NCBI GenBank assembly: GCA_025350055.1
Contig: JANXYK010000021.1
Span: 1 to 64,000, forward strand
Length of the DNA stretch: 64,000 nt
Reading direction: 5' to 3'
DNA from: Gammaproteobacteria bacterium
GTDB taxonomy: Bacteria > Pseudomonadota > Gammaproteobacteria > Steroidobacterales > Steroidobacteraceae
Shown here piece after piece: positions 4,327 to 15,696 of the stretch; the stretch's first letter is position 1; each line of letters begins with the position of its first letter. The notes beneath the pieces are model-generated. The model was not told where the DNA came from. It saw only the letters and a program-made list of their open reading frames with translations, and ran no database searches. Both the position numbers and the translations under genes were made by a program.

Positions 4327-4342
4327 TTGCCACCAGACCAGT

Positions 4343-4597
4343 ATGGCTACCAGAAAACACCGTGGTGTCGAAGAAGCGCGCAGCCAGTTGCCGCAGTTGC
4401 TCGAGCAGGCTGCTGCGGGCGCGGCCACGATCATCACGCGACATGGCAAGCCGGTGGCAGCACTGGTGCCGCTCGACACTTATGGAGCAGTAGGCAGGCA
4501 ACAATCTGCGTTGCCGCTCGCCGGCACCGGGCGCGGTCTATGGGGCAAACGAAGCAGCACTACCCTTCGCAAGCTGCGCGACGAATGGAGCCGCTAG
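4343..4597 (+). CDS. Phd/YefM-family antitoxin
   Basis: 84 residues from the ATG at 4343; the longer in-frame extension upstream runs through the operator and is not credible. The N-terminal half (VEEARSQLPQLLEQAAAG, then IITRHGKPVAALVPLDTY) matches the Phd/YefM DNA-binding fold, and the C-terminal tail (RSSTTLRKLRDEWSR) is the kind of segment that wraps the toxin. It overlaps the PIN toxin start by 13 nt, so translation is probably coupled. Role: neutralises the downstream toxin and probably represses the operon through the tandem CTGTACAG sites. Confidence 0.85.
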   Translation: MATRKHRGVEEARSQLPQLLEQAAAGAATIITRHGKPVAALVPLDTYGAVGRQQSALPLAGTGRGLWGKRSSTTLRKLRDEWSR

Positions 4598-5010
4598 ACC
4601 TCAGCGATCTGCAGGCGGGTGCGCTGCTGCTGATCGATACGGCGCCGATTGTCTACCTGCTTGAAGGGCACCCAAGATACGCGGCGCGCTTCCGTCCGAT
4701 CTTCGAAGCGCACGCCGCCGGTCGCGTAATTTTTGCGACCACGACAGTCACGCTGGCGGAATTGCTGACCGGGCCGCTGCGCACCGGCAACGAAGCATTG
4801 GCGCGGCGCTATCGCAGCCTGCTGCAGTCGTGGCAGTTGATGGACCTCGATGCCGACATCGCCGAGACTGCGGCGCGGCTGCGTGCCACGCTCGGACTCA
4901 AACTTCCCGATGCAGTGCAGGCGGCCAGCGCCCTGGCCATCGGCGCAGCCGCACTGGTCACGCACGATCGCGATTTCTCGCGCGTCAGGGAGCTGCACGT
5001 CCTGTCGTGA
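4585..5010 (+). CDS. vapC: PIN-domain toxin, VapC-like
   Basis: 141 residues from the ATG at 4585, inside the antitoxin end. The acidic PIN residues are all visible: Asp in LLIDTAPIVYLLE, Glu in LAELLTGP, Asp in LKLPDAVQAA and Asp in VTHDRDF. PIN toxins are Mg-dependent ribonucleases that cleave tRNA or rRNA. The arrangement (antitoxin first, short overlap) is standard for type II modules, though a Phd-type antitoxin rather than VapB is paired with it. The RNA target cannot be told from sequence. Confidence 0.88.
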   Translation: MEPLDLSDLQAGALLLIDTAPIVYLLEGHPRYAARFRPIFEAHAAGRVIFATTTVTLAELLTGPLRTGNEALARRYRSLLQSWQLMDLDADIAETAARLRATLGLKLPDAVQAASALAIGAAALVTHDRDFSRVRELHVLS

Positions 5011-5765: not shown

Positions 5766-7721
5766 TCAGGCGCCCGCGCCAAGAGCCAATGCAATGCGAT
5801 AGGTCGCGAAGGAAGCGATCCACGCCATCGCGAACAAGTACCCCGCCATGATCAGCGGATAGCGCCAGGAGTTGGTCTCGCGCCGCACCGTGGCCAGTGT
5901 CGACAGGCATTGCGGCGCGAATACGTACCACGCCAGCAGCGAGAGCGCCGTGGCCAGGCTCCAGCTCGAGGCGATCATCGGCCGGAGCGCCGCATCCAGA
6001 TTGTCAGTGCTGCCCGAGAGCGCATACACCGTGCCGAGTGCACCGACCGCGACCTCGCGCGCCGCGAGGCCCGGCACCAGCGCGACGCAGATCTGCCAGT
6101 TGAAACCGATCGGCGCGAAAATGGTCTGCAGCGCGCGACCCATCATGCCCGCGAAACTGTACTGGATCGCAGGCCCCGTGGCGCCGACCGGCGGCGCAGG
6201 GAAAGTCGCCAGGAACCACAGCACGATCATCAGCGCGAGGATGATCGTGCCCACGCGCGAGAGGAAAATCATCGTGCGCTCGTACAACCCAACCATCAGG
6301 TTGCGCAGGTTGGGCCAGTGATATTCCGGCAGTTCCAGCAGCAGCGGGTGATAGCTGGTGCGAAAGGCCGCGCGCTTCATCACGAAGGCCACCAGCACCG
6401 CGCCCAGCACGCCGGCGACATAGAGCGCAAACAGCACCAGGCCGCGCAGGTTGAACCAGCCGACCGACTGATCCGGAATGAAGGCACTGATGATCAGCGC
6501 GAAGACCGGCAGCCGCGCGGAACAGGTCATCAGCGGTGCGATCAAAATGGTCGCGAGGCGATCGCGCACATTGGGAATGGTGCGCGTGGCCATGATGCCG
6601 GGAATTGCGCAGGCGTAGGAGGACAGCAGCGGGATGAACGAGCGGCCCGAGAGGCCAATGCTGCCCATCAGCCGATCAAGCAGGAACGCCGCGCGCGGCA
6701 GGTAACCACTGTCTTCGAGCAACAGGATGAACAGAAACAGGATCAGGATCTGCGGCAGGAACACCAGCACGCTGCCCGCGCCCTTGATCACGCCATCGAC
6801 CAGCAGGCTCTGCAGTGGCCCCGGGCTCATGCTGGCACGCACCGCGGCACCGAGCGTCGACATGCCGCTGTTGATCAGATCCATCGGATACTGGGCCCAG
6901 CTGAACACAGCCTGGAATACCGCGAACAGCAGCACGGCCAGCAGTATCGGACCGGCGATCGGGTTCATCACCACGCCATCGAGACGCGCGAGTGCGCGGG
7001 TGCGCAGCGGCTCGACGTAGCCCGCGATGGCGAGGATACGGCGCGCTTCGCGTTGCGTGGCGGCGATTTCTTCCGAAGTGTTGGTGGGCTCGGGCGGTGC
7101 CAGCACGCGGTGCCGACCCGTCGATGCAAGTTGCACCAGGTCTTCATCGGCGGCGCGCCGGGCGCTGTCGCGCTCCACTTCCTGCGCGCCGCGCATCGCA
7201 TCGAGCGCCGCGACCAGTTCGCGCACGCCGGAGTGCGCGACCGCCACGGTCTCGACTACCGGCAAACCCAGCTCGGATTCGAGCCGCGCGCGATCGAGCT
7301 GGTAGCCGCGGCTGTGCGCGAGATCGCTCATGTTCAGCGCCACGATCATCGGCTTTTTCAGCCGGCGCAGCTCGAGCACCAGACGCAGCGAGAGCTTCAG
7401 GTTGGTGGCATCGACCACGCAGACGATCAGGTCGGGCGCGATCTCGCTGCGCAGCTTCCCGGAGATCACATCGCGCGTAATCGCCTCATCGAGCGTGGCA
7501 GGCACCAGGCTGTAGGTGCCGGGCAGATCGATCAGCTGGTAGTGCCGGCGCCGGTCGGCGCTGTGAAACTGGCCTTCCTTGCGCTCGACGGTGACACCAG
7601 GATAGTTCGCCACTTTCTGCCGGCTGCCAGTCAGGCGGTTGAACAGCGCCGTCTTGCCGCAATTGGGCACGCCGACCAACGCGACGCGGCAGGACCCGGG
7701 AATTTCAGGTTTGGGGCTCAC
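5766..7721 (-). CDS. feoB: Ferrous iron transporter FeoB
   Basis: 651 residues. The N-terminal G domain has G1 GVPNCGKT (residues 17-24), the switch region with YPGVTVERKEG, G3 DLPGTYSL (from residue 65) and G4 NMSD. The membrane part follows from about residue 255 with repeated gate motifs such as LLSSYACAIPGIMATR and FAPQCLSTLATVRRE. Length is at the short end for FeoB, lacking the long C-terminal extension of the E. coli protein. Imports Fe(II) across the inner membrane. feoA overlaps its start by 4 nt; a Fur-like site precedes feoA. Confidence 0.97.
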   Translation of the reverse strand: MSPKPEIPGSCRVALVGVPNCGKTALFNRLTGSRQKVANYPGVTVERKEGQFHSADRRRHYQLIDLPGTYSLVPATLDEAITRDVISGKLRSEIAPDLIVCVVDATNLKLSLRLVLELRRLKKPMIVALNMSDLAHSRGYQLDRARLESELGLPVVETVAVAHSGVRELVAALDAMRGAQEVERDSARRAADEDLVQLASTGRHRVLAPPEPTNTSEEIAATQREARRILAIAGYVEPLRTRALARLDGVVMNPIAGPILLAVLLFAVFQAVFSWAQYPMDLINSGMSTLGAAVRASMSPGPLQSLLVDGVIKGAGSVLVFLPQILILFLFILLLEDSGYLPRAAFLLDRLMGSIGLSGRSFIPLLSSYACAIPGIMATRTIPNVRDRLATILIAPLMTCSARLPVFALIISAFIPDQSVGWFNLRGLVLFALYVAGVLGAVLVAFVMKRAAFRTSYHPLLLELPEYHWPNLRNLMVGLYERTMIFLSRVGTIILALMIVLWFLATFPAPPVGATGPAIQYSFAGMMGRALQTIFAPIGFNWQICVALVPGLAAREVAVGALGTVYALSGSTDNLDAALRPMIASSWSLATALSLLAWYVFAPQCLSTLATVRRETNSWRYPLIMAGYLFAMAWIASFATYRIALALGAGA

Positions 7722-8211: not shown

Positions 8212-8961
8212 ATGTCCGCTCGCAATCACCTGCTGGGTGCCGCCGCCGGTGCGCTAGCCCTGTTCTGCGCCCAGGCCCCCGCCTTTGCCGATCCGCCGGG
8301 CTGGTCCGATGGCTACAGCGAACATGGCCAGGATCGCGACGAGCGCGATCACGACAACCGGGATCATGACCGGAACGACCGGCCACACGACAATCGGGTC
8401 AACGCCCACGAGCGGCGAGACGAGCGCCATGAAGAGCGCGACGATCGTCGTGACGATCACGGCGATCAGGGCTATCGCGGCTATGGCAGCTACGGCGGCT
8501 ATGGTGGGTACGGCGGCTATCGCGGTTACGGCGGCGATCGCTGGCCGCGCGACTACGGCGTGGTGGGTCGCGGACGCTGCGACGCCGATGGCGTGATGAC
8601 CGTGTTCGGCGCAGTGACAGGCGGAATCATCGGCAATCGCACCGCCTCACCGGCGAACCGCGGCATCGCCACTGTTTTTGGCGCCATCGCTGGCGGCATC
8701 ATCGGCAACGCGGTGGGCAGTGCCATCGACGACAGCGACCGCGCTTGCATCGGTCAATCACTCGAGCTGGTGCCCATCGGTCGTCCGGTGGTCTGGCGCA
8801 ATCCGCGCAGCCACATCGACTGGCGCATGGTGCCGGTACGCGATGTGTCGCACGACTGCCGCGAGTTCGACCTGGTGCGCGACTACGACGGCCGCTCGGG
8901 CCATGAACGTGTGATCGCCTGCCGCCGCGGGCGCGGCTACTGGGAGTTCCGCGGACGCTAA
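8212..8961 (+). CDS. Exported Gly-zipper envelope protein with Asp/Arg- and Gly/Tyr-rich repeats
   Basis: 249 residues. A signal peptide (ending QAPAFA) is followed by a charged stretch rich in DRDERDHD-type repeats (about residues 40-85), a Gly/Tyr repeat (about 87-105), and two Gly-zipper helices (VFGAVTGGIIGN and VFGAIAGGIIGNAVGSAI). A C-terminal domain with three Cys ends GRGYWEFRGR. Gly-zipper 2TM domains resemble 17-kDa surface antigen and OmpA-linked lipoproteins; an envelope or outer-membrane-associated role is likely but unknown. The His/Asp-rich part could bind metals, which fits a place between feo and bufferin genes, but this is speculation. It converges on the DoxX gene with a 4-nt overlap of stops. 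Confidence 0.8.
   Translation: MSARNHLLGAAAGALALFCAQAPAFADPPGWSDGYSEHGQDRDERDHDNRDHDRNDRPHDNRVNAHERRDERHEERDDRRDDHGDQGYRGYGSYGGYGGYGGYRGYGGDRWPRDYGVVGRGRCDADGVMTVFGAVTGGIIGNRTASPANRGIATVFGAIAGGIIGNAVGSAIDDSDRACIGQSLELVPIGRPVVWRNPRSHIDWRMVPVRDVSHDCREFDLVRDYDGRSGHERVIACRRGRGYWEFRGR
8470..8541 (+). repeat. In-frame Gly/Tyr codon repeat
   Basis: Imperfect repeats of GGCTATGGC-like units encode a run of GY and GGY units inside the Gly-zipper protein. Such a repeat can expand or shrink in 9- or 3-nt steps without breaking the frame. Confidence 0.6.
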
Positions 8962-9416
8962 GCGCTACGGCGACTGGCCAACAGCCGCGCGATCAGCGCA
9001 TCGAGCGAGAGCACGCCGGGACCGCGCGCCAGCAGAATCAGCAGGAACGCTACCCACTGGATGTGCGTGGGCCAAGCGCTCGGATAAACGAAAGTCTGTA
9101 TTACCGTGATCATCCCGAGATAGGCCAGCGCGACGGCGCGCGTACCCAGCCCCAGCAGCATCAGCACGGCGCCACCGAGTTCCATCGCGGTGGCCGCGTA
9201 GGCGGCGACCTGCGGCGGGATCAGCGGCACCTTGTATTCGTCCGCGAACAGGTTGAGCGTGCCGGCCCAGTCATCGAGCTTCACTGAACCCGAGCGCCAG
9301 AACACTACCGCGGTGGCCAGACGCGCCACCAGTGCGATGAAGCTGTAGGGAATGCGTTCCAGCAGGTTGCGTATCCTGATGAACAGGCCGCCTGATGTCG
9401 TTGCGATGGTGTTCAT
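8958..9416 (-). CDS. bufD: DoxX-family membrane protein of bufferin operon
   Basis: 152 residues from ATG 9416, which overlaps the bufC stop (ATGA). Four hydrophobic helices are visible (FIALVARLATAVVFW; AYAATAMELGGAVLMLLGLG; ALAYLGMITVIQTFVY; WVAFLLILLARGPGVL), with the DoxX-type R-x-A-x-x-x-x-F segment in the first. DoxX proteins often close bufferin/MNIO operons; proposed to support respiration-linked steps, but the exact role is unknown. The symbol bufD is positional. Confidence 0.8.
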   Translation of the reverse strand: MNTIATTSGGLFIRIRNLLERIPYSFIALVARLATAVVFWRSGSVKLDDWAGTLNLFADEYKVPLIPPQVAAYAATAMELGGAVLMLLGLGTRAVALAYLGMITVIQTFVYPSAWPTHIQWVAFLLILLARGPGVLSLDALIARLLASRRSA

Positions 9417-10258
9417 TGGCCTGCCCCCGTGGCGGCATTGTTGTGGGTTGCGACGCGCACGAAGCGCGCCTGGAGAATTTCCTGTTGCAGCTGTGCGGCC
9501 ACTGCGCCCTCGGGCGAATCGCCTGCTGAGAGTGCGGCGGCCAGCGCCTGCTCGCTTGTGCCGCCATCGAGCACGGCACGCAGATAGCTCGCCGCGGCAG
9601 CGCCCAGCGGTTGCAGCATCACGCCTTCCGCAGTGCGCCACATCGCAAAATGCTGCTCGCCGCAGGCGAGATCGACCGCGGCCAGCGCCGCGGCGTCATC
9701 GGCCAGGATGGCCTCGCGCAGTGCCGCGACCGGATAGCTCGAAGAGTGCACCAGCAATCCGGCAGTGAAATACAGGTTCAGCTCGCCGTGCAGTGGCACA
9801 GCGACACCGGCGTGACGATCATCGGGCACGCGACGCGCCAGCTCATCGAAGCGCGCATCGAACTGCGCCAGTGCGCGCAGGTATGGCAGGTTTCCGGTGC
9901 CAGGAAAGCCATCGATGAAAGCGACGAAACCGTGGCCCCAGCTGCCGAGTTGCGGTGCGCGCGGCGGCTGCGCGCGCGAAAACTCCACCGCCATGCGATC
10001 GAAGAAGGCCTCACCCACCAGCTGATCGACGGCTGGATAGGTCTGTCGCAAGGCGTGGCTCAGGCCACCGAGTACCGTGTTGCGATGTACCCGCAATCCC
10101 TCGGCGCCAGGCATGGCGCCTGCGAACAGTGCCGCAGGCAGTTCGCGCCCCGCATCGTCCGCGGCCATCAGCGCCGTGGCCATGCGTGATTGCAGCATCG
10201 CCAGCGGCCAGAGCGCGGGCGCGACCTGCGCGCCGGCAATGTCAGGCGTGCGCTGCAT
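9413..10258 (-). CDS. bufC: MNIO partner protein BufC (DUF2063-type)
   Basis: 281 residues from ATG 10258, 17 nt inside the end of bufB. The N-terminal domain (LQSRMATALMAADDAGRELPAAL, then LRVHRNTVLGGLSHALRQTYPAVDQLVGEAFF in outline) is the DUF2063/putative DNA-binding domain seen in HvfC and BufC; a second beta-rich domain follows. In bufferin and methanobactin-like systems this partner presents the precursor peptide to the multinuclear iron oxygenase. The overlap with both neighbours supports a single translationally coupled operon. Confidence 0.88.
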   Translation of the reverse strand: MQRTPDIAGAQVAPALWPLAMLQSRMATALMAADDAGRELPAALFAGAMPGAEGLRVHRNTVLGGLSHALRQTYPAVDQLVGEAFFDRMAVEFSRAQPPRAPQLGSWGHGFVAFIDGFPGTGNLPYLRALAQFDARFDELARRVPDDRHAGVAVPLHGELNLYFTAGLLVHSSSYPVAALREAILADDAAALAAVDLACGEQHFAMWRTAEGVMLQPLGAAAASYLRAVLDGGTSEQALAAALSAGDSPEGAVAAQLQQEILQARFVRVATHNNAATGAGQ

Positions 10259-11165
10259 TGGCCTGGTTCCTGAAGTCTGCACGGCTGCTGCGAGCGAGCG
10301 GCAACGACGTGTAGTCATCCTGCAATTGCTGCGCGTGCTGCGCTTCTTCCTGCAGCACCCTGAAATCGGGCAGGCGCGTATCCCATTCGAGCAGGGTGGG
10401 CAGCACGCCAAATTCCGCAATAGCGGCTGCATACAAAGACCAGACATCGGCGCACACGCGATCGCCGTGATCGTCGATGCGCAGCTCTGCGCCATCGGTT
10501 GTGGCGACCACGGCGTGGCCGGCGAGGTGCATCTCGCCCACACTGCGATGATCGAGGGCCTGGCTCCAGTGCGCCAGCACTTCATGGGCATCGCGGCGCT
10601 GATTGCGCGCACTCACATAGATATTGTTGATGTCGAGCAGTACGCCGCAGCCGGTGCGCTGGACCACCGCTGCGAGAAATTCCGCCTCGCTCATATCAGC
10701 GGAGGCGTAACAAAGATAAGTAGAAGGATTCTCGATCAGCAGCGTGCGAGCCAGCGCCTGTTGCACCTGCCCGACATTGCGGCAGACGATGGCCAGCGCT
10801 TCTTCGGTATATGGCAGCGGCAGCAGATCTGGCAGGTAGTGGCCGTTGGCCACGCTCCAGGAGAGATGATCGGAGATCAGGCCGGGTGCGAGTCGCTCGC
10901 TCAAGTCGCGCAGTCGCGCCACATGTGCAGCCTCTACACCCACTGCCGAACCCAGTGAGAGGCCTACGGCGTGGAGCGAGAGCGGATAGTGCGCGCGCAG
11001 CTGCTCGAGTTCGGCCAGCGCGGCCTCATCGGCCATGTAGTTCTCGGGATGAACCTCGAACCACGCCGCGGTGGGTCGCTCGGTCGCCACCATCGACTGA
11101 TGAGGCAAACGCAGCCCGATTCCGGCGCGGGCCGGAATCGGGCTGCTGGCGAGCGACTGCGACAT
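10242..11165 (-). CDS. bufB: Multinuclear non-heme iron oxygenase BufB (DUF692)
   Basis: 307 residues. Start taken at 11165, where the ATG overlaps the bufA stop by one base (TGATG). Metal-ligand motifs of the MNIO TIM barrel are all visible: FEVHPENYM, LHAVGLSLG, SDHLSW, LIENPSTYL, LDINNIYVS, EMHLAGH and IDDHGDRV. MNIOs modify Cys residues of RiPP precursors; for Caulobacter bufferins the reported product is a thiooxazole that binds copper. Its likely substrate is the four-Cys peptide encoded just upstream. Confidence 0.93.
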   Translation of the reverse strand: MSQSLASSPIPARAGIGLRLPHQSMVATERPTAAWFEVHPENYMADEAALAELEQLRAHYPLSLHAVGLSLGSAVGVEAAHVARLRDLSERLAPGLISDHLSWSVANGHYLPDLLPLPYTEEALAIVCRNVGQVQQALARTLLIENPSTYLCYASADMSEAEFLAAVVQRTGCGVLLDINNIYVSARNQRRDAHEVLAHWSQALDHRSVGEMHLAGHAVVATTDGAELRIDDHGDRVCADVWSLYAAAIAEFGVLPTLLEWDTRLPDFRVLQEEAQHAQQLQDDYTSLPLARSSRADFRNQANAAHA

Positions 11166-11443
11166 CAGCCCTTCATCAGGCTGCCACTGCCCAGCTTGGC
11201 GCACACGCCAGCGGGCAGTTCCACGAACGAGGTCTTGTCCATGCTCTTGGTCGCCTGGCCAGCGCAGGAATGATCGCCCGAGGCGCAATCGTTCTTGCCG
11301 GCCTTGTTCACGCCGAAACACTTCTCCATGGCGGGCTTGTCCATCGCCTTCTCGGTGGCGGCAGAAGCCGTGGCGACGAAGCCGAGGGCGGCGGCGCCGA
11401 GCAGCGCGGACAGGGTCGCGGTCTTGAGGGAAATCGCTGACAT
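11165..11443 (-). CDS. bufA: Bufferin precursor BufA1 (DUF2282)
   Basis: 92 residues. A Sec-type signal peptide ([16 protein letters not shown], to about residue 28) is followed by a small domain with four Cys at 42, 53, 60 and 81 in the DUF2282 pattern: EKCFG, AGKNDCA, HSCAGQ and GVCAKL. This matches BufA1-type bufferins, exported RiPPs whose Cys are modified by BufB and that chelate copper. Unlike many RiPP precursors the peptide keeps a signal sequence in place of a typical leader. First gene of bufA-bufB-bufC-bufD; a candidate ECF promoter lies about 90 nt upstream. Confidence 0.92.
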
Positions 11444-11530
11444 GAGTTACTCCAGTATGGATTGAGGGTTGTCGATCAATGGGCCTGGGCGTCGCCAGTC
11501 TGTCTGACGCTCTCCGCTGCGGCTACCCAT

Positions 11531-11557
11531 ATATCGTTGCGATCGGGCGAAGGTTAC
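11531..11557 (-). promoter_or_regulatory. Candidate SigF-type ECF promoter for bufA
   Basis: On the minus strand GTAACC (11557-11552) is followed after 15 nt by CGATAT (11536-11531), about 88 nt upstream of bufA. It resembles the GTAACC/CGAA promoter described for Caulobacter SigF, but spacing is one short and the -10 differs. It overlaps the ribosome-binding region of the divergent sigma gene, which could link the two units. Confidence 0.35.
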
Positions 11558-11560
11558 ACG

Positions 11561-12145
11561 ATGATCGTGGCCATGGCCCCGGGCACGCAAGCACAACTGC
11601 AGGAAGCCGCCTGGGCCGGGCTGATGCGCGCTGCCCAGGCCGGCGACGCACACAGCTACGAGCAGCTGCTGCGGGCGATAGTTCCTTTCATCAGGAGCCT
11701 GGCACGCCGTTACAGCCGCGGCGCCACGGCCGCTGAAGATGTGGTGCAGGACGTACTGCTGTGCGTGCACCGCGTACGCCACACCTGGGATCCGGCGCGA
11801 CCTTTCTGCCCCTGGCTGGCGGCCATTGCCGCGCGTCGCGGTATAGACAGAATCCGGCGCGATGCGCGCATCTCGCGCCATGAGCTCAACGATGAGGCGG
11901 CCTATGAAACCTTTGCCGCCCCTGCAACGAATAACGAAACAGGAGCCTTGCGCGCCGCCGAACAGATCGAGCCCTTGCTGGCAGCGCTGCCCGAGCGGCA
12001 GCGCCAGGCTCTGGAGGCGACCAAGCTGCGCGGCCTGTCGCTGGCGCAGGCGGCCGAAGAGTCGGGCCAGAGTGTCGCGGCCCTGAAGGTCAATGTGCAT
12101 CGCGCCGTGAAATCGCTGCGGCGCCTGCTGGGTAACGATGGATAG
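11561..12145 (+). CDS. sigF: ECF sigma factor, SigF-like, of bufferin locus
   Basis: 194 residues from ATG 11561, chosen because GCGAAGG sits 7 nt before it; an in-frame ATG at 11462 would add 33 unlikely residues. Region 2 shows FIRSLARRYSRGATAAEDVVQDVLLCVHRVRHTWDP in outline with FCPWLAAIAARRGIDRIRR, and region 4 shows LPERQRQALEATKLRGLSLAQAAEESG with the recognition helix VAALKVNVHRAVKSLRRLL. Its divergent position to buf genes and an NrsF-type partner match the Caulobacter SigF/NrsF arrangement that controls bufferins. Overlaps the anti-sigma gene by 8 nt. Confidence 0.88.
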   Translation: MIVAMAPGTQAQLQEAAWAGLMRAAQAGDAHSYEQLLRAIVPFIRSLARRYSRGATAAEDVVQDVLLCVHRVRHTWDPARPFCPWLAAIAARRGIDRIRRDARISRHELNDEAAYETFAAPATNNETGALRAAEQIEPLLAALPERQRQALEATKLRGLSLAQAAEESGQSVAALKVNVHRAVKSLRRLLGNDG

Positions 12146-12821
12146 GAATGTGGAGACCGATAGACTGATAGCCACGCTGGGCCAGGGGCTCAGTGCCGTC
12201 AAACCGCTGCGGCCGCCGCAGTGGCGGGCGTTGCTGTGGCTGACGCCGCTCGCCTTGCTGGTAGTCGCCGCGCTGTGGCGCTACGCGAATCTCACGGCGA
12301 TGGCGCATCGCCTGGCCGAGCCGCGCGCGGCGCTGGAGTGCATTGGCGCGCTACTGACCGGTGTGAGCGCGATCGTATCGGCGTTCTATCTGTCGTTGCC
12401 CGATCGCTCAGACCTGTGGCGCTTCGCGCCCCTGCCGCCGTTGTTGTTGTGGATGGCCTGCAGCGGTGTGGGCTGCCTGGAACACGGCCTCGGCCTGGGC
12501 CCAGCTGGCGATCGGCTGGGCGAGAGCGGCAGTTGCTTCAAGTTCATCCTGATAGTCAGCCTGCCGACGGCGGCGCTGTTGTTCCTGGCGCTGCGCCGTG
12601 CGCGGCCCCTGCTACCGCTACGCGTGGCGCTCAGCGGCGCGCTCGGCGTCGCGGCGCTGGCGGCCTTCGTGCTGATGTTCTTTCATCCCTTCGACGTCAC
12701 GCTGATCGATCTTGCAATGCATGCATTGGCGGTGGTTCTGGTCGTCAGCCTCGCCGGACTGCTCAGGCGGGTGGCCTTTTCGCCCACGGACTCGCGCCCG
12801 GGCGGTACCGGACAAAGTTGA
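12138..12821 (+). CDS. nrsF: NrsF/DUF1109-family membrane anti-sigma factor
   Basis: 227 residues. A short cytosolic N-terminus (ETDRLIATLGQGLSAVKPL) precedes about six transmembrane helices. Cys residues at 68, 108, 113 and 133 lie in or near the membrane part; conserved Cys in Caulobacter NrsF are tied to metal sensing. It overlaps the ECF sigma gene by 8 nt, the standard sigma/anti-sigma arrangement. Expected role: holds the sigma factor until metal stress releases it to drive the buf operon. Confidence 0.87.
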   Translation: MDRNVETDRLIATLGQGLSAVKPLRPPQWRALLWLTPLALLVVAALWRYANLTAMAHRLAEPRAALECIGALLTGVSAIVSAFYLSLPDRSDLWRFAPLPPLLLWMACSGVGCLEHGLGLGPAGDRLGESGSCFKFILIVSLPTAALLFLALRRARPLLPLRVALSGALGVAALAAFVLMFFHPFDVTLIDLAMHALAVVLVVSLAGLLRRVAFSPTDSRPGGTGQS

Positions 12822-14877: not shown

Positions 14878-15279
14878 CTAGATCTGGACGATCCTGACAA
14901 TACGTTTCAGCGGGCCAAAGTCGACTGCGTTGCGGGTGTAGAGCGGCAGGCCGATGGCTGCGGCTGTCGAGGCGATGAGCAGGTCGGCGAGCCGCGCGCG
15001 ACTCGATTGCCCAGCGGCAAGTGCCGCAGCGAATACCCGGCCATACATGCGTGCTGATTCTGCATCGAAGGGTAACGGGTCCCAGGTCGCCGTCGCCCAC
15101 TGTAGTCGATCCTGTCGGCGGGCGCGTTCGTCCGTGTTCTCGGTCGCGTGCGGGCCCGCGGTGAGTTCAGCCAGACTGATCGCGGTGATTGCGGATTCAT
15201 CGGGTAGCAACGAGGGATCGATCAGGTCATGATCGATCACGACCGAAGTGTCCAGAACGCCCTGCGAGGGTTCAGACAT
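14878..15279 (-). CDS. vapC: PIN-domain toxin VapC
   Basis: 133 residues. PIN acidic residues are seen in VLDTSVVIDHD, AISLAELTAGP, RLADLLIASTAAAIG and TRNAVDFGPL, the usual VapC layout. Predicted Mg-dependent ribonuclease toxin. Starts 8 nt inside the end of the antitoxin gene, so the pair is translationally coupled. A second, unrelated PIN toxin is encoded at 4585-5010. Confidence 0.9.
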   Translation of the reverse strand: MSEPSQGVLDTSVVIDHDLIDPSLLPDESAITAISLAELTAGPHATENTDERARRQDRLQWATATWDPLPFDAESARMYGRVFAAALAAGQSSRARLADLLIASTAAAIGLPLYTRNAVDFGPLKRIVRIVQI

Positions 15280-15523
15280 GGGCGTGTGGGTTCACGACCG
15301 CATCGAGGTCGGCGCGAAACTGCCCGGCGTCGATCCGCGCCGCCTGCGCCGCAGCATCCGCGATGGCAGCTCGTGGCACGAAACGGCGGCGCCGGATAGG
15401 TCGCAGTTCGCCTACCGGGGTGCCATTCCGACTGACTATTACCGTCCGTCCGGCTTCCACCTCGCGGAGGATGGCCCCGGAGTCATTGCGCAGTTCTCGC
15501 TGTGTGATGACGCGGTTTTTCAT
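15272..15523 (-). CDS. Phd/YefM-family antitoxin
   Basis: 83 residues from ATG 15523 (MKNRVITQRELRNDSGAIL), the usual family start; an in-frame ATG at 15559 would add 12 residues. The DNA-binding half continues VEAGRTVIVSRNGTPVGELRPI, and the tail after RRRRFVP is the toxin-binding part. The sequence before ATG 15523 (CTACCCTCC) has no Shine-Dalgarno. Three TGCTAC repeats lie directly upstream. Confidence 0.88.
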   Translation of the reverse strand: MKNRVITQRELRNDSGAILREVEAGRTVIVSRNGTPVGELRPIRRRRFVPRAAIADAAAQAARIDAGQFRADLDAVVNPHAHV

Positions 15524-15528
15524 GGAGG

Positions 15529-15558
15529 GTAGCGTAGCAGTTGTAGCACTTCGTAGCA
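15529..15558. promoter_or_regulatory. GTAGCA triplicate, likely VapBC operator
   Basis: GTAGCA occurs at 15534-15539, 15543-15548 and 15553-15558, with a partial copy GTAGC at 15529-15533. The 9-10 nt spacing puts copies about one helical turn apart immediately upstream of the antitoxin, as expected for cooperative binding by the antitoxin complex. If translation starts at 15559 the repeats are coding. Confidence 0.4.
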
Positions 15559-15696
15559 AGTCGGCCCCTCGCCCCCTCTGCGCGCAGGCTGAGGTGCGCA
15601 GCGCCAGCGGCTATCGCACTGCACTACGAAGATTCCGCAGCGACTAGCGGTTTCCCGCAATGACGTGCGCTGGCATGGCCTTGGTATAAACAGCCC

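Follow-up and report, generated by a model that had tools for sequence, protein, structure and literature searches.

We analysed a 64,000-nucleotide (nt) stretch of DNA, hereafter the window (contig JANXYK010000021.1, positions 1 to 64,000 of the forward strand), from a Steroidobacteraceae gammaproteobacterium (GCA_025350055.1; 3.29 Mb in 76 contigs, 96% complete), and focused on a bufferin operon and the regulatory gene pair that faces it. At 8958–12821, the overlapping genes bufA-bufB-bufC-doxX lie on the minus strand, opposite an extracytoplasmic function (ECF) sigma factor gene and nrsF on the plus strand. bufA (11443–11165) encodes a Buf1 (DUF2282) precursor of 92 amino acids (aa) with cysteines at positions 42, 53, 60 and 81 (PF10048, E=2.6e-20, 72.6 bits) and, judged by eye, a Sec-type N-terminal signal; the four cysteines are also present in BufA of 11 relatives. 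It is followed by bufB (11165–10242, 307 aa), encoding the MNIO maturase (PF05114, MbnB_TglH_ChrH, E=4.7e-96), which also matches the NCBIfam model NF050167, 'MNIO family bufferin maturase', with 343.1 bits against a cut-off of 310 and aligns with the solved DUF692 protein 3bww (E=1.3e-33), then by bufC (10258–9413, 281 aa), encoding the DUF2063 partner protein (PF09836, E=4e-20, 72.3 bits), and by doxX (9416–8958, 152 aa), encoding a membrane protein (PF07681, E=1.5e-17, 64.4 bits). On the plus strand, the gene for an ECF16-type, SigF-like sigma factor (11573–12145; PF04542, Sigma70_r2, and PF08281, r4_2) precedes nrsF (12138–12821), encoding a six-helix anti-sigma factor (PF06532, 44.7 bits). 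The Pfam matches of all six proteins exceed the family cut-offs (26.8 bits for PF06532), and the coordinates overlap by 1 nt (bufA/bufB), 17 nt (bufB/bufC), 4 nt (bufC/doxX) and 8 nt (sigma/nrsF). An earlier note on this DNA had proposed a bufferin locus with a divergent sigma/NrsF pair and a four-cysteine DUF2282 BufA, and both proposals are borne out: every gene is where it had been placed and matches its family. The one correction concerns the sigma factor start, which we move from 11561 to a probable ATG at 11573: at 11561, the six nearest relatives (L036–L041) have an isoleucine codon that is no start. Profile searches of the source assembly returned a single MNIO match and a single DUF2282 match.

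Judging from its genes, this is a complete and ordinary Buf1 bufferin operon of the type already published: a four-cysteine DUF2282 precursor with a putative signal is directly followed by the MNIO gene and accompanied by DUF2063 and DoxX genes. Precursor, MNIO, DUF2063 and DoxX genes form the core of published Buf1 clusters, in which sigma factor and NrsF genes also occur (PMC12452194). The SigF, NrsF, DUF2282, DUF692 and DoxX genes of Caulobacter are inducible by copper, and mutation of sigF renders the bacterium sensitive to it; the equivalent Cupriavidus cluster responds to gold, silver and copper (PMC8224329). Because this published gene set and the copper induction in Caulobacter cover the same genes, the operon itself is known, and what is new here is its control, namely the branch to which NrsF belongs, the promoter layout and a probable DUF1223 target. 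The earlier note had also taken the spacing of the BufA cysteines to predict which of them may be modified; for Buf1 precursors this is already settled in print, the central two of the four conserved cysteines being modified and the outer two joined in a disulphide, with the resulting thiooxazoles chelating copper (PMC12452194). Peptides with thiooxazoles are reported to absorb near 305 nm. Captophorins/fontiphorin and oxazolin (HvfABC) likewise depend on an MNIO and a partner that make thiooxazoles on a precursor, with a role in copper detoxification, but their precursors carry EGKCG-type repeats, whereas the precursor encoded in the window is a DUF2282 protein whose four cysteines are spaced apart. 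We rejected DoxX as an obligate part of the operon, since the gene was not found after bufC in the five nearest relatives whose contigs span this place (L114, L116, L117, L119 and L120); it may be dispensable in the lineage of the window.

The bufA promoter motif, TGTAACC-N15-CGAT (11558–11533, minus strand), lies just 5' of the probable sigma factor start codon, and TGTAACC-N15-CGA(A/T) precedes bufA in the window and in 10 aligned relatives. A further relative, L033, in which all genes are on one strand, was excluded from this alignment and has no ECF16-type motif on the divergent strand. The motif fits the ECF16 target type, described in Caulobacter as GTAACC-N16-CGAA (PMC3511200), with a spacer one base shorter and a different final base. 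In Caulobacter, sigF is itself preceded by a similar promoter and is not strongly autoregulated (PMC3511200), and Bradyrhizobium EcfF is reported to be autoregulated (PMC3420878). Upstream of the sigma factor gene in the window, by contrast, we found no GTAACC-N15/17-CGAA motif, even allowing two mismatches, and we therefore reject autoregulation of this gene from a promoter of its own type. Another motif, GGCTACCC, which the nearest relatives share on the strand of the sigma gene, was discarded as a candidate because its spacing is incompatible with ECF16.

The modest PF06532 score led us to a divergent branch of NrsF. The published descriptions of ECF16 anti-sigma factors speak of two conserved cysteines (PMC3511200, PMC3420878, PMC8315932), C131 and C181 in Caulobacter NrsF; the window NrsF keeps the first (Cys133), has a histidine at the place of the second (His183) and carries an extra cysteine, Cys113, where the third helix ends; it also has His195. 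In Bradyrhizobium OsrA, C179, which aligns at the place of His183, is essential for sigma factor release on peroxide and C129 possibly serves to hold the sigma factor (PMC3420878), and Brucella AbcS has the same cysteine pair (PMC8315932). Within the genus, NrsF matches were found in 11 of 15 genomes, and DUF2282 in the same eleven. A contig scan with a 12-sequence alignment yielded 40 loci (L114–L153), mostly from alpha- and gammaproteobacterial records, whose 42 NrsF proteins all have C113 and C133 and, wherever the column is readable (41 of 41), H183, although one of the two scan patterns contains FFH and thus biases the set toward H183. The isolate Zavarzinia aquatilis HR-AS (L148) is one that has all three residues. 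For this reason of bias, we separately classed the NrsF proteins of two samples for which the Pfam model was the sole search tool. The family sample comprised 68 matches (the window, 62 fetched loci and five weak or fragmentary matches left unfetched), from which 60 proteins of at least 100 aa were classed with the window excluded; L046 and L274 contributed none, and L043 and L044 represent one genome. The classes were 43 Cys183, 16 His183 and one Gln183, with Cys113 in none of the Cys183 proteins and in 15 of the 16 His183 proteins, the last having Cys182, and these His183 cases come from the genus of the window plus one near relative. For the phylum sample, 80 stretches were fetched with five weak matches omitted, giving 79 classed rows (two from L189, none from L248 or L260): 60 Cys183, 13 His183, five Glu183 and one, the fragment L258, that lacks column 183. 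Here, Cys113 occurred in 0/60 Cys183 and 10/13 His183 proteins (three of the latter also with Cys182), and Cys182 alone in three. Pooling both samples, Cys113 accompanies His183 in 25 of 29 proteins, the remaining four having Cys182, versus 0/103 for Cys183.

In a tree of 150 proteins of at least 150 aa each, which took 10 chosen loci (12 rows) from the 40-locus scan, the 41 His183 rows group into a single clade, to which the window NrsF belongs (support 99/94, from a bootstrap that had not quite converged). The four proteins that carry Cys182 instead of Cys113 make up a single sub-branch. Across 40 NrsF sequences, 39 of them from the 40-locus scan, the only invariant columns are F83, W105, C113, C133 and H183, while H195 is present in 90% or more and identity to the window protein falls to 30%. 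Our literature searches, which covered open-licence papers, returned no description of the His183 branch. Several related forms were observed in passing. Five proteins (L230, L231, L237, L239 and L240) constitute a further clade with Glu183, Cys133 and His195 (support 100/100), and the nrsF gene of L239 adjoins bufA and bufB. Three others (L261, L262 and L263) combine Cys182 and His183 and lack Cys113; the L261 gene neighbours what by eye is a DsbD/ScsB-like gene, a family linked to copper sensitivity. L143, a locus from a metagenome-assembled genome of Caenispirillum, has three NrsF-type genes (1623–2189, 2369–2956 and 6010–6624); two of these, whose products have 5–6 cysteines, stand in tandem on the far side of doxX.

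In bufferin loci, the two NrsF classes also differ in promoter layout. For each strand of the region preceding the sigma factor gene, we tallied GTAAC...CGWW motifs, as a measure of motif occurrence and not of expression, at loci where this gene lies beside nrsF with at least 250 nt upstream; the eleven bufferin loci L033–L043, which overlap the 40-locus scan, were entered once. Among the resulting 32 distinct His183 bufferin loci, the motif precedes the sigma gene in 0/32 and occurs on the opposite strand in 28/32, compared with 28/37 and 22/37, respectively, for Cys183 bufferin loci. Shuffled sequences, preserving base composition alone, gave an expectation of 0.007–0.014 motifs per strand for these bufferin groups and group means of 0–0.06 motifs per strand overall. 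The motif before the sigma gene was also found in 43 of 61 Cys183 loci with no bufferin genes in reach; it is thus frequent, albeit not universal, among Cys183 loci, and the window, which comes on top of the 32 His183 bufferin loci, lacks it. Of the 28 His183 bufferin loci with an opposite-strand motif, 24 have a 15-base spacer, whereas 21 of the 22 Cys183 ones have 16 bases; since the spacer is also 16 in all five His183 loci without bufferin genes, the short form belongs to the bufferin-linked members of the branch. Nine His183 loci of the phylum sample are without bufferin genes; among these, L253, L256 and L257 have a full motif before the sigma gene and L244 has a weaker one.

The exact promoter motif has six matches in the source genome, versus two for the reversed pattern, and besides the bufA match we followed one of them in relatives, that upstream of a DUF1223 gene whose product has a signal-like N-terminus by eye. 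DUF1223 is a thioredoxin-fold family (PMC3091736), with 2axo as its solved relative. The gene is present in 8 of 15 genus genomes, and in six of these eight, (T/C/G)GTAAC(C/T)-N15/16-CGAA stands 152–160 nt before the DUF1223 domain; one of the two genes without the motif, L282, belongs to a genome (G134) with neither an nrsF nor a DUF2282 match. Outside the genus, the motif was found in five of nine distinct NrsF loci with DUF1223 in reach, spanning both NrsF classes. These recurrences make the DUF1223 gene a probable member of the same regulon as the bufferin operon, which would place a thioredoxin-fold family without known function in this response. A search of open-licence papers for DUF1223 together with copper returned no match, DUF1223 by itself being mentioned in two, and it does not appear in the copper core list given for Caulobacter SigF (PMC8224329). 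Separately, another of the matches (G000:C17:44874-44900, in L109) lies 228 nt before a gene resembling a TonB-dependent receptor; in Caulobacter, one TonB receptor is copper-induced outside SigF control (PMC8224329).

The earlier note had equated the architecture of the locus with that of Caulobacter, and this stands for the gene order but fails for the controller. As in the Buf1 system of Caulobacter vibrioides/crescentus (CCNA_03362–03366; NrsF, CCNA_03273), the precursor, MNIO, partner and DoxX genes are accompanied by a sigF-nrsF pair, the precursor has four cysteines, and an ECF16-type promoter precedes the operon. In contrast, NrsF has Cys113/Cys133/His183 instead of C131/C181, the sigma gene is without the upstream ECF16 motif of Caulobacter sigF, the bufA spacer is 15 bases rather than the published 16, and the genome has a promoter-bearing DUF1223 gene. 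More broadly, the window resembles EcfF/OsrA of Bradyrhizobium, BcrS/AbcS of Brucella and SigF/NrsF of Caulobacter in encoding a sigma factor and then a six-helix anti-sigma factor, and in the GTAAC...CGAA type of promoter, but C179 of OsrA, C179 of AbcS and C181 of NrsF all correspond to His183.

An AlphaFold2 model of the window NrsF consists of six long helices (predicted local distance difference test score 87.5, predicted template modelling score 0.81), which, together with the PF06532 match, agrees with a six-helix NrsF-family protein encoded after its sigma factor, as in ECF16 pairs; sequence searches found no relative among solved structures at E up to 1. C113 is placed at the end of helix 99–116, C133 in helix 122–153, H183 in the loop 180–188 and H195 in helix 189–213, so that, with the topology judged by eye, all four residues are predicted to fall on one side of the membrane. 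The charged residues fit a cytoplasmic N-terminus, and this side would therefore be the periplasmic one.

Taking these observations together, we propose, with a probability of about 0.72, that this is a complete Buf1 locus in which the ECF16 sigma factor drives both bufABC-doxX and the DUF1223 gene, and in which a metal site formed by C113, C133 and H183 of NrsF releases the sigma factor. The six-helix NrsF would hold the sigma factor until the site, to which H195 perhaps contributes, is filled by a metal, most simply Cu(I). The released sigma factor would transcribe the bufferin operon and the DUF1223 gene from GTAACC-N15-CGAW, as the conservation of these motifs suggests. By analogy with other Buf1 members, BufA would be exported by Sec, BufBC would convert C53 and C60 to thiooxazoles, C42 and C81 would form a disulphide, and the product would trap periplasmic copper. 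As the sigma gene lacks a promoter of its own type, the response would be graded and self-limiting, with BufA removing the metal and positive feedback weak or absent. That the Cys/Cys/His set binds copper we infer from its setting: beside a copper operon, NrsF has three invariant residues that could act as ligands and share one membrane side, and they stand in for a cysteine known to be required for oxidant sensing. The window NrsF may accordingly differ from two-cysteine NrsF in how it senses its signal. A more far-reaching version, in which the whole His183 branch would be a family of direct Cu(I)-binding anti-sigma factors with a Cys2His or Cys2His2 site embedded in the membrane at its periplasmic face, and its bufferin loci would operate without positive feedback and with two effectors, the copper-trapping operon and a secreted thioredoxin-like DUF1223 protein, we put forward only tentatively.

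Several observations weigh against the proposed metal site and its link to the bufferin operon, in addition to the bias of the scan toward H183. The His183/Cys113 pattern is essentially one old split followed by one later swap, so the counts given above are not independent. Moreover, the His183 branch has no general link to bufferins: either bufA or bufB lies within 4 kb in 11/16 His183 versus 16/43 Cys183 loci of the family sample, but in 3/13 versus 22/60 of the phylum sample, all these counts being lower bounds, as 30 family loci have flanks of only 1.5 kb. His183 NrsF as a bufferin-specific form was rejected on the phylum figures. A full motif does precede the sigma gene in L253, L256 and L257, the bufferin-free His183 loci noted above, and the DUF1223 gene of L278 lacks the motif although its genome has nrsF and bufA. 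Finally, in Caulobacter NrsF, replacement of either C131 or C181 raises regulon expression, both cysteines being needed for repression, and metals elicit a response that does not depend on oxidative stress (PMC3511200); a two-cysteine NrsF is thus already metal-responsive, and His183 is unnecessary for a metal response as such.

The rival that survives best, possible but with the odds against it, is that NrsF is still a thiol-redox sensor, in which Cys113 substitutes for the lost cysteine by forming a disulphide with Cys133, and His183 serves for tuning only. All 29 sampled His183 proteins do retain another cysteine in addition to Cys133, at position 113 or 182, and peroxide or hypochlorite triggers a response in two ordinary ECF16 systems (PMC3420878, PMC8315932). 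A disulphide, however, leaves the invariance of His183 across the 40 sequences unexplained, even if the scan behind 39 of them favours His183, and the genes bearing the promoter are a copper-peptide operon and one thioredoxin-like protein. The independence of the Caulobacter metal response from oxidative stress, set against the need for the second cysteine of OsrA in the peroxide response, has posed a puzzle about NrsF sensing, and a natural branch with histidine for that cysteine and a cysteine elsewhere reduces the question to a few point mutants.

It is unlikely that the locus is an entirely ordinary Buf1 system whose NrsF differences reflect neutral drift in an old branch, irrelevant to sensing. 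Gene order and promoter type are indeed those of the published system, and column 183 tolerates other residues, with the five Glu183 proteins in one clade and one Gln183. Yet C113, C133 and H183 remain invariant while identity to the window protein drops to 30–50%, and drift would not fix three potential ligands while almost every other column is free to vary. Least probable is that, instead of copper, the system deals with a different metal or thiophilic stress (gold, silver, mercury or arsenic): the Cupriavidus cluster answers gold and silver besides copper (PMC8224329), and the His183 nrsF of L244 neighbours genes that by eye are methyltransferase-like and ArsR-type-like, but copper is the metal shown for Buf1 in print (PMC12452194), and no arsenic or mercury protein was found among the ten window proteins scanned against Pfam and NCBIfam.

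As to the surroundings of the operon, the earlier note had suggested a metal-stress island, pointing to feo genes and a His/Asp-rich envelope protein, and this idea is weak. Among the 40-locus scan loci, feoB adjoins the operon in seven of eight same-genus loci with enough flank (feoA was matched in six) and in 0/30 other loci, several of them incomplete. The His/Asp-rich neighbour (8212–8961), an Asp/His/Arg-rich and Gly/Tyr-rich protein with a glycine-zipper domain, is convergent with doxX, the stops overlapping by 4 nt; we rejected it as a metal protein because it matches only glycine-zipper families in Pfam and NCBIfam. Homologues occur at L114, L116, L117 and L120, and L119 gave a weak match. 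The feo/glycine-zipper neighbourhood is local synteny, in which we found no sign of a functional metal island. Elsewhere in the window, two open reading frames (4327–5010 and 14878–15559) are PIN-domain-like by eye, the second with an adjacent Phd-like frame, and these are possible VapBC-type toxin-antitoxin pairs.

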